Shown one piece after another: positions 11,800 through 39,464 of a stretch of DNA of 64,000 nt. A program made the position numbers and the translations under genes. The stretch's first letter is position 1, and each line of letters starts with the position of its first letter. The stretch lies in the NCBI RefSeq assembly GCF_000337775.1, contig NZ_AOLQ01000004.1:62001-126000 (forward strand). The letters run 5' to 3'. This DNA comes from Haloarcula vallismortis ATCC 29715 (lineage in GTDB: Archaea > Halobacteriota > Halobacteria > Halobacteriales > Haloarculaceae). Under the pieces are notes generated by a model. That model did not search any database. It was not told the DNA's origin and saw only the letters and a program-made list of their open reading frames with translations.

Positions 11800-12056
11800 A
11801 TGTATTCACCACGGGCGTTGCGTGGTTCAAGTCGCGGTCTGCGACTCACATCCCGACCTGCACACGCAGGTGCCCGCTGGTGCCCGTCGTCCAGCGAGTT
11901 ATCCGCAATTTGCCGTTCGGACTCTTAAGCGGTTCGGACCAGACTCACGGGTGTGACCCGGTCACGCAGGAACAGTACCCGCCGAAAACATCGGATGTCT
12001 GGGGTATCACAACACAAATCGTTAAGTTGTTCGCAACCAGAGAGTCACGTATTACC

Positions 12057-38199: not shown

Positions 38200-38220
38200 A
38201 ACAATCCTACATACGCACCG

Positions 38221-38236
38221 TCATATCATAAATATG
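38221..38236 (-). promoter_or_regulatory. TATA element for the NifU gene
   Basis: On the minus strand the sequence ACATATTTATGATATG lies 22-38 bases before the ATG. It is AT-rich in a GC-rich genome and fits a haloarchaeal TATA box giving a very short or absent 5' leader. It abuts the palindrome at 38242-38255 on its upstream side. Confidence 0.6.
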
Positions 38237-38241
38237 TCTAT

Positions 38242-38255
38242 TTTGGTATGCCTAA
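38242..38255. promoter_or_regulatory. Iron-box-like palindrome adjacent to the nifU TATA
   Basis: TTTGGTATGCCTAA matches the TTAGG-N4-CCTAA (IdeR/DtxR/SirR-type) consensus with one mismatch in the left half. Further T and A residues extend the dyad on both sides. It lies immediately upstream of the NifU TATA element, a position where binding could block or assist TFB/TBP. Confidence 0.65.
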
Positions 38256-38288
38256 AATATCGGTTCACAGGCCTTCAGAGCCAATAAT

Positions 38289-38302
38289 TTTGGCTCGCCA
38301 AA
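38289..38302. promoter_or_regulatory. Second iron-box-like palindrome upstream of nifU
   Basis: TTTGGCTCGCCAAA is a palindrome of the TTnGG-N4-CCnAA kind: both arms read TTTGG/CCAAA and are symmetric. It lies 47 bases (centre to centre) upstream of the first, about 4.5 helical turns, suitable for cooperative binding. It is 66 bases from the 3' end of the dtxR-like gene. Confidence 0.6.
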
Positions 38303-38367
38303 CAATTAGTATCCCACTTCTATTATTTTTCGTGTGACCTAAAATAGCCTTGTTGCGAAGTCGCTAC

Positions 38368-38790
38368 TCAGGCGGTGTCCTCGTCTGGTGCCGCCGAACC
38401 TGTCTCCGAAACGTCCTGTCTCTGTCTCGGCTCGGCGTCGCAGGGCAGTGTGGCGGCCAGTCGCTCCGCCACCATCGGACTGACTAGACCGGCCAGTTCC
38501 ATCGCTTCCGCCTCATGGTCGTCGAGGTCGAGGACCCCCCGAAAGAACCACGAGACGGTCACGTACGCCTCGTGTAACTCCGCTGCTTCCTCACGCCCCG
38601 ATGGCGTTAACGTCACCCCATCGTATGGCTCGTAGGTCACGAAACCCTCCTCTGCGAGCCGCTGGCACATCTCCGTTACCGCTGCCGGAGACCGATCAAG
38701 CATCTCCCCTAGCTCTCCCGGGGCGACAGGTGGTTCGTCCCGGTGCTGTGCGATGTATATCGCCAGCAGATACTCTGGTGCCGTTCTCAT
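38368..38790 (-). CDS. DtxR/SirR-family regulator lacking canonical metal ligands
   Basis: A 140-residue regulator with an N-terminal winged helix (VAPGELGEMLDRSPAAVTEMCQRLAEEGFVTYEPYDGVTLTP) and a DtxR-type dimerisation helix region. By eye against IdeR from memory, several metal-binding residues differ: His79 aligns with Tyr, Glu83 with Ser, His98 with Glu, Cys102 with Met, Glu105 with Ala and His106 with Gly. No SH3-like third domain. It may have lost classic Fe/Mn binding or use other ligands. A GGAG about six bases before ATG supports the start. Two iron-box palindromes flank a TATA element about 400 bases upstream. Confidence 0.85.
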   Translation of the reverse strand: MRTAPEYLLAIYIAQHRDEPPVAPGELGEMLDRSPAAVTEMCQRLAEEGFVTYEPYDGVTLTPSGREEAAELHEAYVTVSWFFRGVLDLDDHEAEAMELAGLVSPMVAERLAATLPCDAEPRQRQDVSETGSAAPDEDTA

Positions 38791-39178
38791 CGCTCCGACG
38801 GATCCATCCGATTCCCGCCGCCTGTAGACGTCCCTGTCGTCGACTCCCCAGTCGACTGCTCACCGGTCCCGAAGAGTACCGCGGCGGCCCACGCCCACAG
38901 TCGGGCATGCGACCGCTGCGGGCGTTTCCCCCGCCCTACTATTTCGCTATTGCTGTCACCCCTCATCAGGCAGACGCCCCCCAATGGTGTCGGTAGAGCG
39001 CGGGTGGCCGAGCGACCGCTCGCCGTTGGAAACTCGGAACGACGCCCGCAATGTGCGTCGGCACCACGCGAACGCTGTCGATAGCGCCCTCGACAGTAGG
39101 AAGCGACCCCCCATCGATTTCTGCGTGGGTCTCCCCCCGTTTGTGCCCCGCACTCAGTACCGTCGTCTGCCATATGTT

Positions 39179-39192
39179 TTAGGCTTGCCTAA
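39179..39192. promoter_or_regulatory. Perfect iron-box palindrome near the transcription start
   Basis: TTAGGCTTGCCTAA has perfect TTAGG/CCTAA arms, the classic DtxR/IdeR/SirR operator. On the minus strand it lies a few bases downstream of the TATA box and just before the ATG at 39173, so bound protein would block initiation. Confidence 0.75.
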
Positions 39193-39195
39193 TAA

Positions 39196-39206
39196 TATAA
39201 AACCTC
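39196..39206 (-). promoter_or_regulatory. TATA box between two iron-box palindromes
   Basis: Minus-strand TTTTATATTAT in a GC-rich genome. The expected start point is about 25 bases downstream, near 39173, so the RNA could be leaderless for the frame starting there or a long leader to dtxR. It lies between the palindromes at 39179-39192 and 39215-39228. Confidence 0.6.
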
Positions 39207-39214
39207 TGCGGTTT

Positions 39215-39228
39215 TTAGGACGCCCTAA
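39215..39228. promoter_or_regulatory. Second perfect iron-box palindrome upstream of the dtxR promoter
   Basis: TTAGGACGCCCTAA has perfect TTAGG and CCTAA arms around ACGC. It lies on the upstream side of the TATA element; its centre is 36 bases from that of the other box. Two boxes around a TATA resemble repressed iron-response promoters. Confidence 0.75.
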
Positions 39229-39464
39229 TTCAATCGGCGTCGCCGGTAAACGGACCAGTCGAGCCTGCCGTCCAGAGAAGTGCGCCCATCACACGGCACT
39301 CCACCTCACTATCGGAAGTGGTCTCCGCCGTCATCGCTGTGCTGAATCGACTCGGTTAGTTTGCCACATTTGATATCGCGTTATATAATTTATCAAGAGA
39401 ACCGTTGCTCACCGCCGACTCGTCGATAAACAGCCAGATACGGGTAAGTAGCGGCTAAAACGTC

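Follow-up and report, generated by a model that had tools for sequence, protein, structure and literature searches.

A gene for a DtxR-like protein, followed by a gene for a NifU-like protein, lies in a 64-kb stretch of a Haloarcula genome (3.92 Mb), the whole of which is called the window here. A sequence-only reading of this DNA had pointed to four palindromes of the form TTnGG-N4-CCnAA around the two genes, had held four such sites in 1 kb to be beyond chance, and had taken them as a sign of coupled iron control of the regulator and an Fe-S scaffold. The question raised by the locus is whether the palindromes are operators of an iron regulator and, if so, which protein reads them and whether the two genes would respond in the same way.

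Four boxes at two promoters

A pattern scan of the whole window gave exactly four matches to TTNGG-N4-CCNAA, the four that had been described, all within 1 kb (Table 1). Both boxes at the promoter assigned to dtxR, which is called idr below, were exact copies of TTAGG-N4-CCTAA, while both nifU boxes had TTTGG and/or CCAAA arms. Dinucleotide shuffles of the window (n=100) contained a mean of 0.39 matches and a maximum of 3. With local composition retained, shuffles of positions 38200-39240 had a mean of 0.013 boxes and four or more in 0 of 5000 cases. Two boxes arose in 0 of 20000 shuffles of 38200-38367 alone, likewise in 0 of 20000 of 39170-39240 alone, and in 2 of 20000 of 39170-39464 alone. 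The earlier estimate that chance does not supply four such sites in 1 kb was thus borne out.

Table 1. Features of the idr and nifU region, in positions of the window
Feature	Position	Strand	Remarks
nifU-like gene, 108 aa	37873..38199	-	PF01106, Nfu-type domain with CSGC; accessory paralog
TATA-like box TTTATGATA of nifU	38224..38232	-	putative promoter element
Proximal candidate iron box, nifU promoter	38242..38255	.	-56 from ATG, 9 bp upstream of TATA-like box
Distal candidate iron box, nifU promoter	38289..38302	.	-103 from ATG
dtxR-like gene (idr), 140 aa, Idr type	38368..38790	-	winged-helix PF01325; canonical DtxR metal ligands missing
Leader, ~383 nt, promoter to dtxR	38791..39173	-	starts with conserved ATG; putative function only
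Candidate iron box B, idr promoter	39179..39192	.	between TATA-like box and presumed transcription start, 36 bp from A
TATA-like box TTTATATT between twin boxes	39194..39201	-	position from sequence; putative promoter element
Candidate iron box A, idr promoter	39215..39228	.	TTAGG-N4-CCTAA, 13 bp upstream of TATA-like box

The lower pair does stand before the nifU promoter, 5' of its TATA-like box. The description of the upper pair held in part: there is a TATA-like box between the two boxes, but the pair does not adjoin dtxR, whose open reading frame starts about 390 nt away.

Conservation at the idr promoter was counted in the window and eight Haloarcula relatives; L102, with a split dtxR and a diverged leader, and L068, nearly identical to L067, were excluded. 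In these nine sequences the arms were invariant at 9 of 10 positions in box A and at all 10 in box B, and none of the four centre positions was invariant in either, giving 19 of 20 arm positions against 0 of 8 positions in the N4 centres. Around the boxes, the spacer (16 of 22 positions invariant) and the first 40 nt past box B (31 of 40) were well conserved too, the 30 nt above box A were not (4 of 30), and the remaining leader was intermediate (136/348). Fixed arms with free centres are the mark that would be expected of a two-fold protein-binding site.

The arrangement extends beyond these sequences. A DtxR ortholog was present in 12 of the 14 genomes sampled from the genus, and all 12 had an upstream twin pair with a spacing of 35-36 bp, located 354-451 nt from dtxR in 11 and about 1.5 kb from it in one. 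At 27 of 40 dtxR-ortholog loci and at 41 of 73 named ones a box lay within 500 nt of the gene, against 0 of 40 and 0 of 73 for the reversed control, and none was found within that distance at the other 13 and 32 loci, respectively, although some of these, including all ten Haloferax loci, carry a twin pair at a greater distance, ahead of a DUF7260 gene. The first set (L067-L105) and the named set (L140-L212, 73 of 80 loci, L213-L219 being omitted as cut short, bacterial or distant) overlap in species, so that the two counts are not independent. Among the box pairs less than 120 bp apart in the 73 named loci, 39 of 52 were spaced exactly 36 bp, and twin boxes at this distance around a TATA box constitute a promoter layout that can be tested.

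Two further observations concern these loci. In L102, from the same genus, the dtxR ortholog falls into two frames and is apparently broken, and the twin boxes are retained. In 35 of the 73 named loci (e.g. L150, L176, L193) a box was seen just after idr, at +400 to +560 from the dtxR start; in the loci examined it precedes a small Amphi-Trp-like gene (the one tested fell slightly short of the Pfam cut-off), and a convergent ferritin-family gene is present in several (one tested).

The nifU product has the scaffold domain of the Nfu/NifU family, as judged by the PF01106 match and by the CxxC motif, CSGC, read in the translation. This accessory form was found at a sequence identity of at least 68% in 21 of 116 genomes of the family, some NifU match being present in 113, and the second NifU of the same genome is about 44% identical to it. 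A strict box occurred at -53 to -56 of the ATG in 17 of the 21 accessory nifU orthologs, L124 and L125 among them being identical loci. In the other four (L113, L122, L123, L130) no strict box was found within 120 nt, and a degraded one was visible by eye at about the same place. Among nine loci of the other NifU, sampled from more than 90 listed, one had a box within 400 nt. The nifU gene adjoins dtxR, in either orientation, in 12 of 40 loci, and accessory NifU and Idr-type DtxR occur together in 18 of 21 genomes (Fisher P 7e-8, relatedness not corrected), counts that are not independent because the genomes are related. A conserved Fe-S carrier gene thereby joins what is likely a haloarchaeal iron regulon. 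NifU is not named in the available part of PMC11349517, and a literature search on NifU with haloarchaea or archaeal DtxR, which covered only part of the papers on haloarchaeal iron regulation, returned a broad review only.

A genome-wide set of boxes

The motif scan that had been suggested as a check was extended to the genome. TTNGG-N4-CCNAA had 45 distinct sites against 18 for the reversed pattern, the tighter TTWGG-N4-CCWAA 24 against 6 reversed controls, and TTAGG-N4-CCTAA 16 against 2. A random spread of the boxes, which would have counted against the original proposal, was not what the scan gave; the tighter pattern exceeded its controls and many of its sites fell in the promoters of genes for siderophore-type binding proteins. 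Outside the window there were 20 tighter sites in 12 regions, all of which were examined for downstream genes. Six boxed promoters belonged to Peripla_BP_2 lipoproteins (L018, L019, L020, L021, L022 and L023, by Pfam; the L022 match, at 26.5 bits, is just under the cut-off of 27.5). Further boxed genes encode one SBP_bac_8 binding protein, a DUF5059/cupredoxin protein and a GMC oxidoreductase, and one boxed intergenic region is common to a histidine-kinase-like gene and a Pyr_redox_2 gene. RGP, glycosyltransferase and DUF7547 genes also carry boxes and have no obvious iron role, and a Pfam search with the 328-aa protein behind the twin boxes of contig C54 gave no match. The set thus includes promoters of iron-uptake-type genes, iron being the presumed cargo of the binding proteins from their family.

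At 11 of 19 starts a box preceded the ATG by 15-31 nt, and on visual inspection most of these boxes directly followed a TATA-like, AT-rich sequence; the 19 start codons were hand-chosen near boxes, and that of the C54 binding protein was placed 6 nt too far downstream. Two sites, L026 and L027, were away from any clear gene start, as expected if part of the set is due to chance. As a separate observation, seven tight boxes are gathered in about 18 kb (G000:C65:171-190 kb; L023, L024) around binding-protein, glycosyltransferase and regulator genes.

The reader of the boxes and the rival explanations

The DtxR protein of the window matched the N-terminal winged-helix domain PF01325 (E 5.4e-13) and had no match to the dimerisation domain PF02742 at 0.001. 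We take the canonical ligands, in C. diphtheriae numbering, to be H79, E83 and H98 for the primary site and M10, C102, E105 and H106 for the ancillary site. When the protein was aligned with the SirR type of its own genome and the two best solved relatives, these positions held other residues, and no invariant or nearly invariant histidine was present in 39 aligned Idr-type DtxR proteins (the window and L067-L105). It therefore has the winged helix of a metal-dependent DtxR/IdeR regulator without the canonical metal ligands of one, and the loss of these ligands poses the question of what Idr senses. The protein was assigned to the Idr type as an ortholog of a Haloferax DtxR gene near a ferritin-family gene. 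That Haloferax gene is presumably HVO_0538 (Idr), which its gene number would place near dpsA, in keeping with the ferritin-family gene in the Haloferax loci. At E<=1e-30, Idr orthologs were detected in 39 of the 116 family genomes and were absent from 77.

TTAGG-N4-CCTAA was found in all 116 genomes, with 1237 sites against 155 controls, and was above control in 115. Two other DtxR paralogs are nearly as widespread, one of 144 aa, designated C42, with matches at E below 1e-38 in 111 of the 116, and one with a FeoA domain, with matches at E below 1e-41 in 112. Three iron regulators, Idr, SirR and TroR, are named for Haloferax in the available part of PMC11349517, and SirR is distinguished by its FeoA domain in that of PMC11218638. 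The SirR-type copy in the present genome carries this domain, and C42 is probably TroR, by elimination among the three types. In Haloferax we take TroR to be HVO_0863, to which C42 is matched by elimination only. By alignment, the SirR type has the full set of metal ligands and the C42/TroR type only part of it. The stretches fetched around the TroR-type and SirR-type genes (L106, L107) contained no box pattern. In some relatives the two genes adjoin (G014:C1:522133-523414, G002:C2:126087-127437). One of these two paralogs most likely reads the boxes. We consider the question evenly balanced for the TroR-type paralog, and rate it no higher in view of the equally wide spread of the SirR type and the partial TroR ligands; the SirR type, complete in its metal ligands, is a possible but doubtful reader.

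It might be supposed that Idr is itself the main reader, repressing its own promoter and controlling nifU. It has a DtxR-type winged helix, the boxes lie beside its own gene, and boxes are about twice as numerous in genomes with an ortholog as in those without (means of 15.7, against 1.2 controls, and 8.1, against 1.4). However, boxes are well above control in the 77 genomes that have no ortholog, so the boxes do not need Idr, its canonical ligand positions have been replaced, and no histidine is invariant or nearly so in the 39 aligned sequences. The argument from ligands is weakened by the TroR type, which is also short of some canonical ligands, so that ligand loss alone does not exclude Idr. 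On balance we find this role unlikely; given the missing ligands and the boxed genomes that lack it, it is more likely that Idr is controlled by the box reader than that it is the sole reader, and it may be a secondary binder. That the boxes belong instead to an unrelated palindrome-binding regulator with a signal other than iron is suggested by those members of the set that have no obvious iron role, the glycosyltransferase, DUF7547 and histidine kinase genes among them, but it appears very improbable when six boxed promoters serve siderophore-type binding-protein genes and the core of the boxes fits the 14-bp consensus proposed for IdeR/DtxR in the available part of PMC8464063.

A further possibility is that the upper pair controls a small gene or small RNA of its own within the leader, instead of or besides dtxR. 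The first ATG to follow the pair, at 39173, is conserved and lies about 25 nt past the TATA-like box, where a leaderless transcript would begin. In the window genome it opens a frame of 128 aa (38787-39173) whose stop overlaps the dtxR start as ATGA. Another short frame, around KRPQRSRARLWAWAYAVVF, terminates where dtxR begins in 10 of the 11 Haloarcula sequences compared and one codon earlier in L142. Nevertheless, the 128-aa frame had no Pfam match and was interrupted in the Haloarcula relatives compared, and the start codon of the short frame was lost in the window and in L144. This short frame, the best of those compared, had a pN/pS of 0.58, near two of the three reverse frames (0.61, 0.69 and 1.35) and unlike dtxR (0.09). 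The pN/pS counts were made in 11 Haloarcula sequences (window, L067, L069-L075, L142, L144); the first frame comparison also covered 11 (window, L067-L075, L102), L102 being outside the pN/pS counts. A structured RNA had no overall covariation support (6 sequences; term +1.1; changes on both sides in 9 of 110 pairs), and the Rfam search gave no match in the leader. Moreover, the window scan showed no other iron box preceding dtxR. A separate gene or small RNA therefore seems quite improbable, and we assign the upper pair to dtxR. A relic of a DUF7260 gene was also considered for the leader and rejected, as a profile of three DUF7260 proteins had no match in 27 translated leader frames. Elsewhere in the window, Rfam identified an eL15-Euryarchaeota ribosomal protein leader (RF03144) at 11819-11870 on the minus strand, with 40.5 bits.

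Proposed control and known systems

We are confident, short of certainty, that a DtxR-family iron regulator uses the four palindromes as operators, through which idr would be blocked at box B and nifU reached by another route; both promoters are very probably iron-controlled. The boxes, their conservation, the genome-wide set and the missing ligands were read from sequence; binding at the boxes, the iron response and its sign are inferred. At idr, a metal-loaded regulator would find two boxes 36 bp apart on either side of the TATA box. Because box B occupies the stretch from TATA to the presumed start, the bound regulator would be expected to block assembly of the transcription complex, and a like block is predicted, again from position, at the siderophore-uptake-type promoters of the same genome that have a box in the same place. 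At nifU, both boxes are upstream of TATA and none lies between TATA and the start, unlike most boxed starts in the genome, so that activation as well as repression is possible. The same regulator may thus take a different route there, and the sign of the nifU response may differ from that of the idr promoter.

The coupled iron control originally proposed survives in part. Sequence supports it in that the boxes are part of a genome-wide set found largely at uptake-type promoters and are kept upstream of both dtxR and the accessory type of nifU. What has to be modified is the role of Idr, more probably a target than the sole reader, and the meaning of "coupled", which need not imply the same sign since the box positions differ between the two promoters. 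A more speculative version, which we would hold only tentatively and think rather unlikely, is that one regulator uses the same box in two geometries at neighbouring genes, turning uptake and idr off from between TATA and start, and nifU on from upstream of TATA, when iron is plentiful, with Idr as a metal-blind DtxR protein that tunes the response. If true, cells would have an inbuilt means of switching between iron collection and the loading of Fe-S proteins.

The boxes resemble those of a bacterial system. In the available parts of the two sources, the 14-bp TTAGGNNNNCCTAA is proposed as the basic IdeR/DtxR target with one dimer per site (PMC8464063), and the same unit is described as a half site bound by one dimer (PMC10317159). 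The boxes of the window have this 14-bp core, like the IdeR/DtxR half site of Saccharopolyspora erythraea, the regulator of which is bacterial and, in the same parts of these sources, has an SH3-like domain and a metal site (PMC8464063, PMC10317159). In Haloarcula, unlike S. erythraea, the 14-bp boxes are separate and, at idr, flank an archaeal TATA box at a spacing of about 36 bp. Written-out consensus strings were found in bacterial or general papers only, as judged by title.

The closest parallel is the TroR/Idr/SirR network of Haloferax volcanii, in which TroR represses iron uptake genes and idr. Martinez Pastor et al. are said to have reported in 2024 that TroR of this species represses idr and recognises a cis motif in front of iron genes. 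Leyn and Rodionov reportedly described archaeal DtxR regulons by comparative genomics in 2015, for the same regulator family and, judged by the title, with the same approach. Iron control of idr by another DtxR protein, known in Haloferax, and the TTAGGNNNNCCTAA consensus make the finding in the window one of a known kind. Like Haloferax, Haloarcula has an Idr-type protein, a SirR-type protein with a FeoA domain and a third, near-universal paralog, and its boxes are at the idr promoter. The two differ in what lies around idr. In Haloferax the twin boxes precede a DUF7260 gene upstream of idr in 10 of 10 loci (L169, L173, L175, L193, L196, L198-L201, L203), where the window of Haloarcula has the leader instead. 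The DUF7260 stop overlaps the idr start in 7 of the 10, so the twin-box promoter in Haloferax probably serves dtxR as part of an operon. Among 113 loci, some of them redundant, 27 had a DUF7260 match, which lay upstream of idr in 25 (Pfam was run on three). A ferritin-family gene is nearby in the Haloferax loci examined, whereas nifU follows dtxR in the Haloarcula window. This type of switch is already known, and nifU is its less expected target.
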